Assembly (NCBI RefSeq): GCF_001422645.1
Contig: NZ_LMLR01000012.1
Span: 162,451-226,450 of the forward strand
Source: Arthrobacter sp. Leaf69
GTDB taxonomy: Bacteria > Actinomycetota > Actinomycetes > Actinomycetales > Micrococcaceae
Reading direction: 5' to 3'
DNA length: 64,000 nt
Part shown: positions 11,442 to 17,657 of the stretch, piece by piece
Layout of the letters: each line of letters opens with the position of its first letter
How positions within the stretch are numbered: position 1 is the first letter of the stretch
Made by a program: the position numbers and the translations under genes
Notes under the pieces: model-generated
The model's input: only the letters and a program-made list of their open reading frames with translations
The model's database searches: none
What the model was told of the DNA's origin: nothing

Positions 11442-11813
11442 GATGCGACTCCCTTTGCCGGGAAGCCGGGTATACCGAGGTGAGACGGAAGGACCAGATG
11501 CGACGGTTACCAGACTTCAGCGTGTGCTTTTGAGGGTTAGGTTGCGCCTGGTAGATAGCTTCCCCGGGGTCCGGGGGCCCGCCTTTGGCAAGATCGAGAT
11601 TAGCACCGGAAAGTGAGCTGCGCCATAGATTTCTGGAAACTTAATTTCGGGATGTGAAATTTATGTTTCCGGATTCTCACTCCGCCCGACCATTGACGGA
11701 TGGGCCGCGGTCACCCTAGCCTATTGAAACCCGGCCACGATGCCGGGCACCCTGGATCAGCAGACAGGGCATCACTGAGCTGGCATTCCCTTCCCACGCT
11801 CAGACAGGAAACC
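11442..11813. promoter_or_regulatory. Divergent control region with three 21-bp-phased half or full sites
   Basis: This 372-bp gap between guaD (-) and the amidohydrolase (+) holds no gene I can support. It contains TTTC-N7-GAAA (11645-11659), with a right half-site GGAA exactly 21 bp before it (box starting 11624) and a left half-site TTTC 21 bp after it (box starting 11666). These also read as an imperfect inverted repeat, GGAAAC...GTTTCC. The layout matches the boxes at 14757, 15060, 18644 and 24419 and is a plausible binding region for the IclR regulator at 17756-18511. Confidence 0.5.
11693..11722 (+). promoter_or_regulatory. Candidate sigma-70-type promoter of the amidohydrolase gene
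   Basis: TTGACG (11693-11698), an 18-base spacer and TAGCCT (11717-11722) form a good actinobacterial vegetative promoter about 90 bases upstream of the start. The phased repeats at 11624-11680 lie immediately upstream, a position suited to an activator or upstream repressor. Confidence 0.5.
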
Positions 11814-13181
11814 ATGATGCCCACACCGTCCCCGCAATCCCGGCTCTGGATCAAGAATCCCCGCGGCGCCTTCACCGCCAACAGCCTCGACGCCTCCGGC
11901 GGAGTGGTGGTCAGCGGCGGCGTCATCACGGAGGTGCTCGCCGCCGGCCAGCTGCCCTCCGCCCCCTGCAGCGAGGTGTTCGACGCCGGCAATCACGTCC
12001 TGCTGCCCGGCCTCATCAACACGCATCACCACTTTTACCAGACGCTCACCCGGGCGTGGGGGCCGGTGGCCAACGCGCCACTCTTCCCCTGGCTGCAGAA
12101 CCTTTACCCGGTGTGGGCGCGCCTCACGCCCCGGGATTTGGAGCTGGCCACGACCGTGGCGCTCGCCGAGCTGCTCCTGTCCGGCTGCACCACCGCGGCG
12201 GACCACCACTACCTCTTTCCGGACGGCATGGAGGACGCCATCGACATCGAGGTTCGGGCGGTGAGCCGGCTCGGCATGCGGGCCACGCTCACACGGGGAT
12301 CCATGAGCCTCGGGGAGGACGACGGCGGCCTGCCGCCGCAGTCCACCGTGCAGTCACCGGACGTGATCCTGGCCGACAGCGAACGGCTCATCGGCGAGTA
12401 CCACCAGCGAGGGGACGGCGCCACGATCCAGATTGCGCTGGCCCCGTGCTCGCCGTTTTCCGTCACCCGGGAGATCATGGCGGAAAGCGCCGCCCTGGCG
12501 GAGCGGCACGATGTCCGGCTGCACACCCACCTCGCTGAGACCCTGGACGAGGAGGAGTTCTGCCGGGAGATGTTCGGCCTGCGGACCGTGGACTACCTCG
12601 ACAGTGTGGGCTGGCTGACCGGCCGGACATGGCTGGGTCACGGCATCCACTTCACCGACGGCGAGATCGCAGCGCTGGGGGCCGCCGGCACCGCCGTCGC
12701 GCACTGCCCCACGTCCAACATGCGTCTGGCCTCCGGAACCGCGAGGGTGCTGGAACTGGAGGACGCCGGGGTGCCCGTGGGGCTGGGTGTGGACGGCTCG
12801 GCGTCGAACGATGCCTCCAACATGATCCTGGAGGCGCGGCAGGCGCTGTACCTGCAGCGGCTGCGCTACGGCGCGCAGGTTCCGGTGGAACGGGCGCTGG
12901 GCTGGGCCACGAGGGGCTCCGCCGCAGTCCTGGGCCGGCCGGACCTGGGCCAAATAGCCCCCGGGATGCAGGCGGACCTGGCCCTCTTCACCCTGGACGA
13001 ACTGCGCTTCTCCGGCAGTCACGACCCCGTCGCGGCCCTGCTGCTGTGCGCGGCCGACAGGGCGGACCGCGTTATGGTGGGCGGACAATGGCGCGTGGTG
13101 GACGGCCACATTCCGGGGCTGGACCTTGCCGGGCTCATTGCGGAGCACTCCGCCGCGGCGCGGAGACTGGTGAACGGCTGA
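11814..13181 (+). CDS. 8-oxoguanine deaminase-like amidohydrolase
   Basis: A 455-residue amidohydrolase of the guanine/8-oxoguanine/chlorohydrolase (COG0402) group. Metal ligands are visible in LINTHHHFYQ, THLAETLDE, WLGHGIHF and GVDGSASND. GSMSLGEDDGGLPP and the NTHHHFYQTLTRAW start are typical of proteins annotated as 8-oxoguanine deaminase. Action on 8-oxoguanine would give urate directly, bypassing xanthine dehydrogenase and joining the pathway at uricase. AGGAA precedes two adjacent ATGs, and the second (11817) has slightly better spacing. Guanine or another aminopurine remains a possible substrate. Confidence 0.75.
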   Translation: MMPTPSPQSRLWIKNPRGAFTANSLDASGGVVVSGGVITEVLAAGQLPSAPCSEVFDAGNHVLLPGLINTHHHFYQTLTRAWGPVANAPLFPWLQNLYPVWARLTPRDLELATTVALAELLLSGCTTAADHHYLFPDGMEDAIDIEVRAVSRLGMRATLTRGSMSLGEDDGGLPPQSTVQSPDVILADSERLIGEYHQRGDGATIQIALAPCSPFSVTREIMAESAALAERHDVRLHTHLAETLDEEEFCREMFGLRTVDYLDSVGWLTGRTWLGHGIHFTDGEIAALGAAGTAVAHCPTSNMRLASGTARVLELEDAGVPVGLGVDGSASNDASNMILEARQALYLQRLRYGAQVPVERALGWATRGSAAVLGRPDLGQIAPGMQADLALFTLDELRFSGSHDPVAALLLCAADRADRVMVGGQWRVVDGHIPGLDLAGLIAEHSAAARRLVNG

Positions 13182-13253: not shown

Positions 13254-14498
13254 ATGAGCCCATCGAAGGCCCCGGCCGAGATCCTCAACATCGCCGGCAC
13301 TGAGGTTCGGATCTCGAGCCCGGACAAGGTGGTGTTCCCCGAACCCGGGCTGACGAAGCTGGACCTGGTGCGGTACTACCTCGCCGTGGCGGATGGTGCG
13401 CTGCGGGGCGCGGGCGGCCGGCCCATGGTGCTCAAGCGCTTCCCGAAGGGCATCGACGCTGAGCCGTTCTTCCAGAAGCGCGTGCCGGAAAACCATCCGG
13501 ACTTCATCGACACGGCGACCCTGCACTACGCGTCGGGGACATCCGCCGAGGAGGCCGTCATCCGGGATGCCGCGGGCCTGGCGTGGGTGGTGAACCTCGG
13601 CTGCCTGGACCTCAACCCGCATCCGGTGCGCGCCGAGGACCTCGAGCACCCCGACGAGCTGCGTGTCGATCTGGATCCGATGCCGGGAGTCGGCTGGTCC
13701 CAGATCGTCGACGTTGCGTATGTCGCCCGCGACGTGCTCGGCGACGCGGGACTCGTGGGGTGGCCGAAGACCAGCGGGTCGCGCGGACTCCACATCCTGG
13801 TGCGCATCTCGCCGCAGTGGTCATACCGCGACGTGCGGCTTGCCGCCGAGACCCTGGCCCGCGAGGTCGAAAACCGCGCGCCCGGCCTCGCCACCGCGCG
13901 GTGGTGGAAGGAGGAGCGCGGCGAGAGTGTGTTCGTCGACTTTAACCAGAACGCAAAAGACCGCACCGTGGCCTCGGCGTACTCGATCCGGCCTCTGCCC
14001 GACGCCCGGGTCTCGACGCCGCTCGTATGGGACGAGGTCCGCTCCGCGCGGCCGGAACTGTTCACGGTGCGCACAGTGCCCCGGCGCTTCGCGGACGGGG
14101 GCGACCCACACGCCGGCATCGACGGTGCGGCGGGCTCACTCGACAAACTCCTCGCGTTGGCGTCCGAGCTCGGCCCCGCCGAAAAGCCCCCGCGCGGCGG
14201 GGACGGCTCCGGCCGCCGGCAGTCGGTGATGCCGCTCATCGAAGTGGCCCGCACCAGGACCAAGCCCGAGGCGCTCGCGGCGCTGGATGAGTGGAAGACC
14301 CGGCATGCGGACATCGTCCCGGCGCTGCACCCCGCCGACGTGCTGGTCGACGGAATGCGCGGATCGAGCTCGCTCTGGTACAGGGTGCGGGTGAACCTGC
14401 AGCATGTCCCCGAGGCGGAGCGTCCGCCGCAGGAGGAGCTCATTGCCGACTACGACCCCTGGGCGGGCAAGGAGTGGCCGGGGCGCCGGGGGTCCTGA
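13254..14498 (+). CDS. Stand-alone LigD-type polymerase (AEP primase family)
   Basis: 414 residues matching the polymerase domain of LigD from bacterial non-homologous end joining. KVVFPEPGLTKLDLVRYY starts the domain. The catalytic metal motif is RVDLDP (about 137-142), followed by KTSGSRGLHI and a C-terminal YSIRPLPDARVSTPL. There is no ligase or nuclease domain in the chain and no Ku gene in the window, so it is the separate-polypeptide version known in actinobacteria. It sits between purine genes without obvious functional link. TAGCGT (13242-13247) lies six bases before ATG, suggesting a leaderless transcript. Confidence 0.88.
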   Translation: MSPSKAPAEILNIAGTEVRISSPDKVVFPEPGLTKLDLVRYYLAVADGALRGAGGRPMVLKRFPKGIDAEPFFQKRVPENHPDFIDTATLHYASGTSAEEAVIRDAAGLAWVVNLGCLDLNPHPVRAEDLEHPDELRVDLDPMPGVGWSQIVDVAYVARDVLGDAGLVGWPKTSGSRGLHILVRISPQWSYRDVRLAAETLAREVENRAPGLATARWWKEERGESVFVDFNQNAKDRTVASAYSIRPLPDARVSTPLVWDEVRSARPELFTVRTVPRRFADGGDPHAGIDGAAGSLDKLLALASELGPAEKPPRGGDGSGRRQSVMPLIEVARTRTKPEALAALDEWKTRHADIVPALHPADVLVDGMRGSSSLWYRVRVNLQHVPEAERPPQEELIADYDPWAGKEWPGRRGS

Positions 14499-14501
14499 CA
14501 C

Positions 14502-14554
14502 GGGGCGCTCGTTGAGGCGCGCCCCTCCAGTACGACAGAACCCCTGCGGGGGTT
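14502..14554. terminator. Two hairpins between convergent genes
   Basis: GGGGCGC/GCGCCCC (14502-14508 with 14519-14525) follows the polymerase gene. A second palindrome, AACCCC-tgc-GGGGGTT (about 14539-14554), overlaps the stop of the convergent small gene. Neither has a long T-run. Together they would separate the two transcripts. Confidence 0.45.
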
Positions 14555-14720
14555 AGCGGCCGAACAGCGGCAGCGCGCGCAGCCAGCGGGAGAATCCCCT
14601 GCCGGCGCGGTCGCAGTCGGCCGGGATGTAAAAGTCGGGATCCGTGGCGCCGAACGGCAGGTACAGCTCCTGGCCGGGCGCCGGAAAGTCAGCGACGTTG
14701 TTTTGATCCTGCTGGTCCAT
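14553..14720 (-). CDS. Small protein of unknown function (55 residues)
   Basis: A 55-residue reading frame with a near-perfect ribosome binding site: GAGGAGG lies six bases before the ATG at 14720. The product starts MDQQDQNNVADFPAPGQ, continues LPFGATDPDFYIPADCD and ends in a basic-aromatic GFSRWLRALPLFGR. It is soluble-looking, with acidic and Pro-rich N-terminal parts and an amphipathic C-terminus. I do not recognise the family. Upstream (14757-14771) is one of the TTCC-N7-GGAA boxes shared with the purine genes, so it is probably a member of the same regulon and may be a small regulator or accessory factor. Confidence 0.65.
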   Translation of the reverse strand: MDQQDQNNVADFPAPGQELYLPFGATDPDFYIPADCDRAGRGFSRWLRALPLFGR

Positions 14721-14756
14721 CTGTTCCTCCTCATTCTTGCCATTATTCCGTATTGT

Positions 14757-14853: not shown

Positions 14854-14879
14854 TCACAATCGGAAAGTTGGGATTGTGA
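14854..14879. promoter_or_regulatory. Inverted repeat TCACAATC-N10-GATTGTGA
   Basis: Perfect 8-bp arms separated by 10 bases make a 26-bp operator-like site in the divergent region between the small gene and uricase. It differs from the TTCC-N7-GGAA boxes, so a second regulator is implied. A weak promoter (TGTACA 14880-14885, 17 bases, TAACCT 14903-14908) begins at its downstream edge. Confidence 0.5.
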
Positions 14880-14913
14880 TGTACACCACCGCCGGCCTGG
14901 GCTAACCTTGAAG

Positions 14914-14997
14914 GTAATTCGTGGCCCAGGTCACGTAACCTGGGAGCAGCAGGCAGGGTTGTAATGAGCTGGCGTCAACTGACGTCGGCTCTTTTTT
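14914..14997 (+). ncRNA. Structured leader RNA upstream of uricase (candidate attenuator or sRNA)
   Basis: From a predicted start near 14914 the RNA can fold a 7-bp hairpin CCCAGGT/ACCTGGG (14925-14931 with 14938-14944). It then forms an intrinsic terminator ending in six T at 14997, 92 bases before the uricase ATG. GCCCAGG (14924-14930) could instead pair with CCTGGGC at 14896-14902 if transcription starts further upstream, giving a possible alternative fold. It matches no riboswitch class I know. It could be a regulated attenuator of uricase or an independent small RNA of about 85 nt. Confidence 0.45.
14966..14997 (+). terminator. Intrinsic terminator in the uricase leader
   Basis: GAGCTGGCGTCA (14966-14977) pairs with TGACGTCGGCTC (14980-14991) through 12 positions with two G-U pairs, followed directly by TTTTTT (14992-14997). 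It is the clearest U-tract terminator in the window, and no upstream plus-strand gene is near enough to need it. Confidence 0.7.
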
Positions 14998-15044
14998 GTG
15001 GGCCGGCGGTGAAAGAAACGAACGCGAAACGCGTACGAAATTTC

Positions 15045-15074
15045 TATGTGGGAGTTTGATTCCACATACCGGAA
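15045..15074 (+). promoter_or_regulatory. Operator region upstream of uricase
   Basis: Two overlapping signals: a 7-bp inverted repeat TATGTGG-N10-CCACATA (15045-15068), and the 15-bp box TTCCACATACCGGAA (15060-15074), which agrees at 13 of 15 positions with the box at 24419. A partial right half (GGGA) lies 21 bp upstream. The box ends 15 bases before ATG, a repressor-like position that would also affect the leader transcript. Confidence 0.5.
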
Positions 15075-15089
15075 GTTGGGAACCACACC

Positions 15090-15998
15090 ATGAACAACAA
15101 GATCGTCCTCGGACAGAACCAGTACGGTAAGGCCGAAGTCCGCGTCGTCAAGATCACCCGCGACACTGAACGCCACGAGATCGAAGACCTCAACGTCACC
15201 TCGCAGCTCCGCGGCGACTTCGCGGCGGCCCACCTGGAAGGCGACAACAGCCACGTGGTGGCCACGGACACGCAGAAGAACACCATCTACGCCTTCGCCC
15301 GGGAGGGCATCGGCTCCCCGGAAGCCTTCCTCCTCCGGCTCGGCGACCACTTCACGTCCAGCTTCGACTGGGTGACCGGCGGCCGCTGGGAGGCCGAGGC
15401 GTACAGCTGGGACCGCATCCAGGCCCACGGCGCGGCCCACGACCACTCCTTCGTGCGCAACGGCCAGGAAGTCCGGACCGCAGTGCTGGTCCGCGACGGC
15501 GCCGACCGGCACCTCATCTCGGGGCTCAAGGACCTGACGGTCCTCAAGTCCACGCAGTCAGGCTTCGTCGGCTACCCGCGGGACAAGTACACCACCCTGC
15601 CTGAGACCACCGATCGGATCCTCGCCACGGACGTCTCCGCACGCTGGCGCTACAACGCCGGCACCGATTTCAGCGCCCTCGATTTCAACAAGAACTACGA
15701 CGACGTCAAGGCCCTCCTGCTGGAGGGTTTCACCGAAAAGTACTCCCACGCCCTGCAGCAGACCCTGTTCGATATGGGCACCAAGGTCCTCGAGGCACAC
15801 AGCGAGATCGACGAAATCAAGTTCTCGATGCCCAACAAGCACCACTTCCTGGTGGACCTCTCGCCGTTTGGCCTCGACAACCCCAACGAGGTCTTCTTCG
15901 CCGCCGACCGCCCGTACGGCCTCATCGAGGCCACGGTCCAGCGCGAAGAGGCAGCACCGGCCGACGCCGCTTGGTCCGGCATCGCCGGATTCTGCTAG
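15090..15998 (+). CDS. Uricase (urate oxidase, factor-independent urate hydroxylase)
   Basis: A 302-residue uricase of the cofactor-free T-fold family, closely resembling the well-known Arthrobacter globiformis enzyme. It converts urate and O2 to 5-hydroxyisourate. QNQYGKAEVRVVKI at the N-terminus, VATDTQKNTIYA (with the catalytic Thr), LKSTQSGFVGYPRDKYTTL in the middle and SMPNKHHFLVDLSPFG near the end are family signatures. The length is normal. No HIU hydrolase or OHCU decarboxylase gene is adjacent, which is unusual for a uricase locus. The ribosome site is weak (GGGAA, seven bases). A hairpin follows the stop. Confidence 0.95.
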   Translation: MNNKIVLGQNQYGKAEVRVVKITRDTERHEIEDLNVTSQLRGDFAAAHLEGDNSHVVATDTQKNTIYAFAREGIGSPEAFLLRLGDHFTSSFDWVTGGRWEAEAYSWDRIQAHGAAHDHSFVRNGQEVRTAVLVRDGADRHLISGLKDLTVLKSTQSGFVGYPRDKYTTLPETTDRILATDVSARWRYNAGTDFSALDFNKNYDDVKALLLEGFTEKYSHALQQTLFDMGTKVLEAHSEIDEIKFSMPNKHHFLVDLSPFGLDNPNEVFFAADRPYGLIEATVQREEAAPADAAWSGIAGFC

Positions 15999-16091: not shown

Positions 16092-16157
16092 CTGTTAGCC
16101 AGACACTGTTAGCCAGACAAAGACGTCTGCCATGAACCAAGAAAGTCTGCCATGAAC
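16092..16157 (+). repeat. Two short duplications at the permease translation start
   Basis: CTGTTAGCCAGACA is tandemly duplicated (16092-16105, 16106-16119). GTCTGCCATGAAC then occurs twice, 20 bases apart (16125-16137, 16145-16157). The second duplication copies the start codon context, giving one ATG at 16132 and one at 16152. Confidence 0.85.
16132..16155 (+). CDS. Possible 7-residue upstream open reading frame
   Basis: The duplicated ATG at 16132 opens MNQESLP and stops at a TGA (16153-16155) that overlaps the permease ATG (16152-16154) in an ATGA arrangement. If translated it would couple initiation of the permease to this leader peptide. No strong ribosome site precedes it. It may simply be a by-product of the local duplication. 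Confidence 0.3.
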   Translation: MNQESLP

Positions 16158-17657
16158 ATGAAAAAGAAGCCGTCCGCGGTCAAGTCCCGCTCCGGCCGCA
16201 CACAGTCCGACCGGCCCGAAGACGAACGCCTCCCGATCGGCAGCACCTTCGCCTACGGCCTCCAGCACGTCCTGACGATGTACGGCGGCATCATCGCACC
16301 CCCGCTCATCATTGGCGCGGCGGCCGGAATGCCCTCCGAGGAAATCGGCCTGCTGATCGCAGCCTGCCTCTTTGTGGGCGGCCTCGCCACCATTCTCCAG
16401 ACCATCGGCATCCCGTTCTTCGGCTCCCGGCTTCCGCTGGTCCAGGGCGTCTCGTTCGCGGGCGTCTCCACCATGGTGGCGATCGTGGATGAGGGCGGCG
16501 GGATCCAGTCCGTGTTCGGTTCGGTGATTGCCGCGTCGCTGATCGGCCTGCTCATCACACCGCTGTTCTCCAAGATCATCCGCTTCTTCCCGCCGGTGGT
16601 CACGGGAACGGTCATTACCGTCATCGGGCTGACCCTGATGCCGGTGGCCGCGAACTGGGCCATGGGCGGCAACAAGGCCGCGCCCAACTACGGTTCCGTG
16701 GCCAACATCGGGCTGGCGGCGGCCACCATGGCCATCGTGCTGCTGCTGAGCAAGGTGGGAAGCGCCACCATCTCGCGGCTTTCCATTCTCCTGGCCATGG
16801 TGCTGGGCACGGTCATCGCCTTTATTGCCGGCATGACGGACTTCTCCAAGGTGGCGCAGGGCCCCATCGTGGCGTTCCCCACCCCGTTCGCCTTCGGGCC
16901 GCCCACGTTCCACGTCGCGGCGATCATCTCGATGCTGATCGTCATCCTGGTGACCCTCACGGAGACGTCCGCGGACATCATTGCCGTGGGTGAAATCGTG
17001 GGCACCAAGGTGGACTCCAAGCGCATCGGCGACGGCCTGCGGGCCGACATGCTCTCCAGCGCCATCTCGCCGCTGTTCAACTCCTTCACCCAGAGCGCCT
17101 TCGCCCAGAACGTGGGGCTCGTCGCCATCACGGGTGTCAAGAGCCGCTTCGTGGTCAGCGCCGGCGGCGCCATCCTGGTGATCCTGGGCCTCCTCCCGGT
17201 CCTGGGCCGGGTGGTAGCCGCGGTGCCGACACCGGTACTGGGCGGTGCCGGCGTCGTACTCTTCGGCACGGTGGCCGCCAGCGGCATCCGGACGCTGGCG
17301 AAGGTGGAGTACAAGAACAACATGAACCTGGTCATCGTGGCCGCGTCGATCGGCTTCGGGATGATCCCGATCGCCGCCCCGACCTTCTACGATCAGTTCC
17401 CGTCGTGGTTCGCCACCATCTTCCACTCCGGCATCAGCTCTGCGGCCGTGATGGCCATCCTGCTGAACCTGCTCTTCAACCACCTCAAGGCGGGCAACTC
17501 GGAAAACCAGTCCGTGTTCGTGGCGGGGACCGGACGAATCGTGAAGGAACAGGACCTCAAAGGCCTGGCCGACGGCGACCGCTTCGAGGGCGGCAAGCTG
17601 ATCGACTGCGACGGCAAGGAAGTCCCCGTGGAGTCGGCGTCGAAATCCGAGCACTGA
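16152..17657 (+). CDS. NCS2 family xanthine/uric acid-type permease
   Basis: A 501-residue NCS2 (UraA/PbuX/UapA-like) transporter, a different branch from the permease at 9394. GLQHVLTMYGGIIAPPLIIG opens TM1. LVQGVSFAGVSTM, VTLTETSADIIAVGEIVG (the family Glu/Asp motif in TM8) and FNSFTQSAFAQNVGLVAITGVKSR (TM10 signature) follow. Members move xanthine, urate or uracil with protons. Position right after uricase favours urate or xanthine. The first 28 residues are basic and cytosolic. A second in-frame ATG lies at 16158. A bidirectional terminator separates it from the IclR gene. Confidence 0.88.
   Translation: MNMKKKPSAVKSRSGRTQSDRPEDERLPIGSTFAYGLQHVLTMYGGIIAPPLIIGAAAGMPSEEIGLLIAACLFVGGLATILQTIGIPFFGSRLPLVQGVSFAGVSTMVAIVDEGGGIQSVFGSVIAASLIGLLITPLFSKIIRFFPPVVTGTVITVIGLTLMPVAANWAMGGNKAAPNYGSVANIGLAAATMAIVLLLSKVGSATISRLSILLAMVLGTVIAFIAGMTDFSKVAQGPIVAFPTPFAFGPPTFHVAAIISMLIVILVTLTETSADIIAVGEIVGTKVDSKRIGDGLRADMLSSAISPLFNSFTQSAFAQNVGLVAITGVKSRFVVSAGGAILVILGLLPVLGRVVAAVPTPVLGGAGVVLFGTVAASGIRTLAKVEYKNNMNLVIVAASIGFGMIPIAAPTFYDQFPSWFATIFHSGISSAAVMAILLNLLFNHLKAGNSENQSVFVAGTGRIVKEQDLKGLADGDRFEGGKLIDCDGKEVPVESASKSEH

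Follow-up and report, generated by a model that had tools for sequence, protein, structure and literature searches.

Among the RNAs described so far, the nearest known system in function to the one reported here is the NMT1 motif, a xanthine/uric acid riboswitch which, in the parts of its description drawn on here, is built as a P1/P2 hairpin with a bulge and occurs exclusively in Proteobacteria (PMC7373994). According to the same parts it switches translation OFF and hardly ever has a terminator, and its authors saw no oxidised-purine degradation genes; its association with purine oxidation genes, including amidohydrolases such as 8-hydroxyguanine and guanine deaminases, resembles our case and the candidate ligands overlap (PMC7373994). 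However, the RNA of this study lies in Actinobacteria, with terminators and with uricase, and is set apart from NMT1 by what these parts describe. The guanine-I variants for xanthine or 8-oxoguanine form a three-stem junction in the cited portions of two papers (PMC9295807, PMC11625349), with kissing loops in the first, and the 8-oxoguanine riboswitch among them possibly has its ligand in common with one subtype of our RNA (subtype B below); but the uricase-leader RNA consists of two hairpins and a distal linear element, with no three-stem junction. ANTAR-target RNAs, reported in Arthrobacter, also have two stem-loops that can precede a terminator and follow an antitermination logic, yet the cited portion of their description gives hexaloops with A1 and G4 (PMC8164766), whereas here the P1 loop is mostly 4 nt in the aligned uricase leaders and the P2 loop 10-11 nt. 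In the HMP-PP (thiS) riboswitch, a terminator-embedded aptamer in the relevant part of its source (PMC6478431), the 5' arm of the terminator belongs to the conserved core, as it does here. Its genes are unrelated to ours, however, and the uricase-type core persists where no terminator follows. Another comparison is with H-type pseudoknot riboswitches such as preQ1 (PMC11625349). In this architecture the loop of a small hairpin pairs with a strand further 3' that also serves the expression platform. The same may hold for our RNA, but the uricase-leader RNA has no Rfam match and stands before different genes.

We analysed the 5' leader of the uricase gene of Arthrobacter sp. Leaf69 within a window of 64,000 nucleotides, i.e. 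the whole stretch of DNA under study, and found it to belong to a family of cis-acting structured RNAs that has apparently not been described before. At gathering level the window has no match in Rfam 15; at the relaxed level each of its two copies gives chance-level matches only, and 14 loci with diverse copies yielded two tRNAs and nothing else from this database. Among the titles and abstracts listed from the open-licence literature none describes such an RNA, so that a report outside them is possible. The main text of two surveys of bacterial RNAs, covering 50 and 26 genomes, names neither Arthrobacter nor Micrococcaceae, and the words xanthine and uric appear there solely in the title of a reference (PMC11109978, PMC8632094), and a word search through the accessible text of two reviews brought nothing closer (PMC7266159, PMC10043782). 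As far as these searches reach, the best reading is a riboswitch-like leader of an ordinary kind, yet of an unreported class. An earlier note on this DNA had likewise seen a cis-acting riboswitch candidate of no named class, with which the lack of an Rfam match and the purine-linked gene contexts given below agree. We regard it as practically certain that the leader is a cis-acting structured regulatory RNA, and as very probable that this RNA is a metabolite riboswitch.

The uricase gene (factor-independent urate hydroxylase; TIGR03383, 379 bits, cut-off 168) occupies 15090-15998 on the plus strand and is 98-99% identical to its closest named relatives. Behind it on the same strand lies a xanthine permease of the pbuX subfamily of NCS2 (16152-17657; TIGR03173, 515 bits, cut-off 414), homologs of which in other genera have their own copy of the RNA (type A, defined below). 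The promoter-like pair and the perfect operator that the earlier note had placed upstream of uricase both stand. The former reads TGTACA (14880-14885), a spacer of 17 nt and TAACCT (14903-14908) on the plus strand, and a TANNNT -10 at constant spacing is kept in 49 of the 50 uricase leaders, the window counted; the latter, a palindromic operator candidate TCACAATC-N10-GATTGTGA without strand (14854-14879), lies directly 5' of the -35 and is partly kept in the aligned relatives, where often only a TCACAAT or a GTGATG half is left. A promoter scan did not list the TGTACA/TAACCT pair, and its sole site, at 14821-14793 on the minus strand, points left to a possible small minus-strand frame near 14553-14721, which is putative. 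The RNA is predicted to start at about 14915, some 5 nt 5' of P1.

Downstream, the intrinsic terminator with six T claimed in the same note was confirmed, with arms at 14966-14976 and 14981-14991 on the plus strand forming 11 pairs around a loop of 4, and the T at 14992-14997. Alone it is not above chance, since 3 kb contain 4 terminator-like sites on both strands against 2.3 +/- 1.8 in shuffles; as chance could supply one of such quality, its weight comes from its conservation, a GC-rich hairpin with a U run being present 5' of the gene in the 49 aligned uricase leaders, as expected of an attenuator of the intrinsic-terminator type. Two other elements of the note hold for the window species but hardly beyond it. 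The hairpin at 14925-14944 is present in the letters and is the minimum-energy fold of the Leaf69 leader in place of P1/P2, but its CCCAGG occurs in only 7 of 50 leaders, and when the leaders of 13 relatives were folded, one (L003) folded like the window and the other 12 formed P1. The supposedly competing CCTGGGC (14896-14902) can be read in the window but in only 4 of 50 leaders, and it lies inside the promoter spacer, upstream of the predicted start, so that it should be absent from the RNA.

Between the terminator and uricase, the stretch 15015-15068 holds GAAAC-N6-GAAAC boxes and a second palindrome, TATGTGG-N10-CCACATA (15045-15068, no strand), both read from the sequence, which may be GlnR-like or IclR-like sites. 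A similar stretch remains in two loci (L033 and L051) which keep only the part below the terminator and thus have uricase without the RNA; this hints at a second uricase promoter below the terminator, which would bypass the switch. On the other side of the leader, a LigD-type polymerase-domain frame (13254-14498; TIGR02778, 225 bits) separates it from the deaminase gene described below, and in L033 a LigD-like polymerase-domain frame ends directly 5' of uricase.

The leader contains a conserved core of 34 nt (14939-14972), which the earlier note had missed together with a second copy of the RNA in the window. Over 49 relatives the mean identity of this core to the window is 96.3%, and that of the third codon positions of the uricase gene is 69.0%, a comparison in which an indel understates L058. 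The alignment of the 49 leaders has 56 invariant columns, and the run from ACCTG to GAGCTG contains two variable positions and a one-base insertion in two rows. Directly upstream lies the P1 hairpin, CGUGGC-CCAG-GUCACG (14920-14935, plus strand), which is supported by covariation. The core itself would begin with a P2 hairpin, in which CCUG (14939-14942) faces CAGG (14954-14957) across a nearly invariant loop, GGAGCAGCAGG (14943-14953), and it ends with the element UGAGCUGG (14965-14972), common to the core and to the 5' arm of the terminator. From their invariant complementarity, the CAGC of the P2 loop (14947-14950) and the GCUG of this element (14968-14971) are proposed as the two strands of a pseudoknot.

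Covariation among homologous leaders, which had been suggested as a check, was found for two of these helices. In 38 sequences, both-side changes occur in 4 of the 6 pairs of P1 and in 4 of the 11 pairs of the terminator; the covariation score, the percentage paired and the both-side pair count are each reached by 0 of 500 shuffles, while the number of further pair types is not above chance (reached by 104 of 500), and for slid structures the covariation score drops to roughly one third or below. The covariation alignment (A4) omits L120, L132, L138-L140 and L149 as well as many near-identical uricase leaders, of which 13 of 50 were used, the window included. In A4, a one-base shift of five type B rows at P2 costs P2 pairs in this test, and since a further alignment (A6) misplaces the same P2 gap, P2 was tallied by pattern instead. 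A6 also omits three copies with linkers above 12 nt, another alignment (A1) omits L040, which has an insertion in P1, and one more (A3) was discarded for containing an antisense match. A helix ending at most 5 nt from P2 is predicted in 105 of 105 type A and in 50 of 56 type B copies, 2 of the 58 type B copies having been dropped for too little upstream sequence; hairpins at the P1 position beat shuffles clearly in type A (mean z -2.23) and mildly in type B (mean z -0.85, 11 of 56 at p<0.05).

Compared with P1, P2 hardly varies. Its CCUG/CAGG is almost invariant, with one pair broken in one copy (L261) and a compensatory CUUG/CAAG in three distinct type B copies of one genus, which probably go back to one event. 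A shorter loop proposed by RNAalifold, CCUG-(7 nt)-CAGG, was rejected, as the type B copies (CCUGGAUCAGCAGACAGG) and the CUUG/CAAG copies fit only a loop of 10-11 nt, and a helix at columns 46-49/96-99 of the model R1 was likewise given up, being unproven. A search with the P2 hairpin pattern alone finds UGRGCUGR behind it in 163 of 163 distinct copies, and this element is also kept in the 64 of them that have no T-run. The linker between P2 and this distal element measures 5-8 nt, apart from L132, L228 and L230, with 24, 21 and 54 nt, of which the longest can perhaps form a hairpin of its own.

The second copy in the window (type B, 11730-11784) matches the models R2 and R3, introduced below, with 31.9 and 50.2 bits. 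On the plus strand, a promoter-like pair read from the sequence, TTGACG (11693-11698), 18 nt and TAGCCT (11717-11722), is followed by P1, CCCGGC-CACGAU-GCCGGG (11730-11747), in agreement with the model matches and the minimum-energy fold, and by P2, CCCUG/CAGGG (11750-11769) with the loop GAUCAGCAGA (11755-11764), on the evidence of sequence, R2 match and fold. In place of a terminator there is a hairpin beside the ribosome-binding site: CUGAGC (11775-11780) folds with GCUCAG (11798-11803), spanning 11775-11803 directly 5' of ACAGGAAACC, and the proposed pseudoknot strand (11779-11782) lies within this region. The energy of the duplex, -13.5 kcal/mol, is reached by 0 of 200 shuffles (p 0.005), and the copy, folded without constraints, forms exactly P1, P2 and the hairpin that precedes the start codon. 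The gene behind it encodes an 8-oxoguanine deaminase (11814-13181, plus strand; NF006055, 683 bits, cut-off 532).

For the gene contexts, 240 pattern matches were reduced to 163 copies distinct by flanking sequence, only pattern-matching copies being counted. One of six gene families follows 161 of the 163 on the same strand within 1.2 kb, which is the position of a leader as expected for riboswitches. The copies fall into two subtypes, which differ at few positions of the near-invariant core and are split cleanly by gene. Type A (n=105) precedes uricase (82), a small protein (14), an NCS2 permease (5), a BMP lipoprotein matching Bmp/PnrA (2), a xanthine dehydrogenase gene matching 2Fe-2S domains (1), or none of these (1, L139), and never 8-oxoguanine deaminase; type B (n=58) precedes 8-oxoguanine deaminase (57) and nothing else, the remaining copy (L262) standing before a deaminase remnant. 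One RNA thus stands before five purine-linked gene families and a small protein of unknown function, as expected of one aptamer serving one pathway. The copies cannot be counted as independent, and since 80 loci were chosen for their similarity to uricase, that gene is over-represented; the split of the subtypes by gene does not depend on this bias.

Of the two kinds of expression platform seen in the window, the terminator recurs among the copies, and the hairpin beside the ribosome-binding site may do so as well. By a crude test, which flags L082 and L237 although they have no terminator arm and misses L133, a T-run is present in 99 of 163 copies and absent in 64. In type B copies without T-run, the distal element is complementary to a stretch before the start codon at p<0.05 in 12 of 43, where about 2 are expected, with a mean z of -1.02 and a median p of 0.18, so that significance is reached in a minority; because of short stretches, this test excludes 6 of 49 type B copies lacking a T-run and 1 of 8 that have one.

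In the 80 loci with close uricases, 49 carry the leader, which makes 50 with the window; the other 31 have another sequence upstream, which in 20 of them shows the end of a neighbour reading like HIU hydrolase by a crude pattern. For the survey of genomes we used a covariance model of the 49 leaders (R1), a second one of 38 diverse members (R2) and a core-only sequence model (R3). R1 matches 91 of 395 Micrococcaceae genomes, among them 71 of 77 in the same genus; these matches include second copies as well as copies from other genera that precede other genes. R3 matches 123 of the 395 genomes in 14 of 32 genera, the individual matches having been inspected in part, and 21 of 376 genomes of the order, 12 of them Micrococcaceae. 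Eight of the nine other genomes were inspected (G397 was left out), and seven carry the core, from three families: G406, G453, G570, G657 and G675 in one, G482 and G485 in two others. In six of the seven the core stands before an 8-oxoguanine deaminase frame, and in G482 (L262) before the remnant, which has a stop after 39 codons. The R3 match in G456 is false, and neither the R3 matches L238 and L263 nor the R2 matches L169 in the family and G000:C4:40284 (L172) have a core by the P2-hairpin pattern. Over 396 genomes of the phylum, R2 gave only the own genus and two matches without core; its matches outside the family, L162-L168, L179 and L180, have none even by the P2-hairpin-only pattern. 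Viral contigs, scanned with one pattern, gave 0 matches. All named source records with the leader are Actinobacteria. In six same-genus genomes matched by neither R1 nor R3, an 8-oxoguanine deaminase over the family cut-off is absent, and five have no uricase; in the sixth (G347) a uricase 87% identical follows a sequence like the C-terminus of XdhC, without the leader.

With regard to mechanism, the reading we favour, as reasonably probable though well short of assured from the sequences, is a riboswitch class for an oxidised purine that works as a pseudoknot ON switch. The RNA would begin about 5 nt before P1, P1 and P2 would fold, and polymerase would then reach UGAGCUGG. With ligand bound, the CAGC of the P2 loop would pair with the GCUG of UGAGCUGR, and this pseudoknot would take the 5' arm from the terminator or from the ribosome-binding-site hairpin and so turn the gene on; with no ligand, the downstream hairpin would form and the gene would be off. 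The pseudoknot strands hardly vary, so that covariation speaks neither for nor against their pairing: in L131 the loop strand reads UAGC, which preserves a wobble pair with GCUG, and no compensatory change was found in the copies. The U of GCUG faces a G within the terminator in all 94 parsed copies (5 of 99 were not parsed), as though a second function kept GCUG constant. Against the mechanism, a pseudoknot of 4 pairs competes with a terminator of 11 and would need kinetics or the ligand to win. The uricases without the RNA (L033, L051, G347), the putative second uricase promoter, the Leaf69 minimum-energy fold, the broken P2 pair of L261, the pair-type count at shuffle level and the weak downstream complementarity of many copies without T-run also speak against it. 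The sequence GGGYCGRC, which lies behind the T run and is complementary to the terminator 3' arm, was rejected as an antiterminator, since it is transcribed only once the terminator has been made.

As to the ligand, we infer urate as first choice, xanthine as second and, for subtype B, 8-oxoguanine as third. Urate comes first because the genes surround it: xanthine dehydrogenase and 8-oxoguanine deaminase produce it, uricase destroys it, and the importers take up purines. The gene contexts thus narrow the hypothesis of the earlier note that a ligand such as urate or xanthine could tune readthrough. A further idea, that one fold has two specificities, subtype A binding urate (or xanthine) and subtype B 8-oxoguanine, both as pseudoknot ON switches, is tentative and rather doubtful in our judgement; if true, the RNA would drive purine uptake and degradation down to uricase. 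We know of no earlier riboswitch class that activates urate breakdown. With its strong conservation, clear gene contexts, two subtypes and expression platforms of two kinds, the RNA lends itself to direct tests of ligand and mechanism. An RNA that responds to urate would have practical value too, since urate sensors serve diagnostics and synthetic biology, and Arthrobacter uricase is a commercial enzyme.

Several other explanations have to be weighed against a pseudoknot ON switch. The same RNA might be bound by a purine-sensing protein, an antiterminator or a repressor, in which case the core would be a protein site and not an aptamer. The strong conservation of a small hairpin and linker would fit this as well, but the conserved letters spread across loop, linker and distal element in an aptamer-like way, and the two hexaloops with A1 and G4 given in the cited portion on ANTAR targets (PMC8164766) are missing, so that we consider a protein site unlikely. 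Improbable too, in our view, is an OFF riboswitch, in which the ligand, for example urate in feedback, would stabilise the downstream hairpin as a terminator-embedded aptamer. The GAGCUG segment is indeed common to core and expression platform in the uricase copies, where it forms the terminator 5' arm; terminator-embedded aptamers exist, as the cited part on HMP-PP describes (PMC6478431), and the NMT1 RNAs are OFF switches for related genes in the parts of their description referred to above (PMC7373994). Against it, the small-protein copies keep the GAGCUGR core although their complementarity downstream barely exceeds chance (4 of 13 at p<0.05, median p 0.49); an aptamer thus does not seem to require the terminator helix. 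Moreover, genes of uptake and degradation are usually induced by their substrates.

An independent small RNA of about 83 nt beside uricase, which the earlier note had raised as an alternative with about 85 nt, would explain why a promoter-like pair, a short RNA and a terminator are all present, but it did not survive the comparison and is now very improbable: the core lies on the coding strand before six gene families, in two or three copies in many same-genus genomes, and 64 of 163 copies lack the T-run. Attenuation by a leader peptide from the AUG in GUAAUGAGCUG is the least credible of all, for although all aligned uricase leaders have this AUG (e.g. AUG AGC UGR), the frame ends after two codons in some rows (AUG AGC UGA) and continues in others, and the type B cores have CUGAGC and hence no AUG.

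Some observations concern single copies or neighbours of the RNA. The small protein behind 14 type A copies (L116-L118, L120, L138, L140, L149, L239-L241, L244-L247; 13 of the 14 without T-run by the crude test) is basic, has about 80-100 aa with the pattern RKRTRHPRF..GERV.F..G...GTGVVDA.T.D.S..WVW.D.G.GRRMF.QG.GSI, and has no Pfam match in the two versions scanned; possibly it takes part in purine control as well. A GTCACAWTCG-type motif lies 5' of the promoter in both uricase and small-protein copies (e.g. L239 and L240, and 14854-14879 in the window), as if one transcription factor might serve both. The leader and uricase are found on a plasmid in L024 (Pseudarthrobacter sp. NamE5 plasmid pE5100) and L115, which means that this unit can move between replicons. 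Finally, 5' of a deaminase gene, the type B core at L123:1315-1373 is partly duplicated in tandem, with CCTGGATCAGCAG occurring twice.
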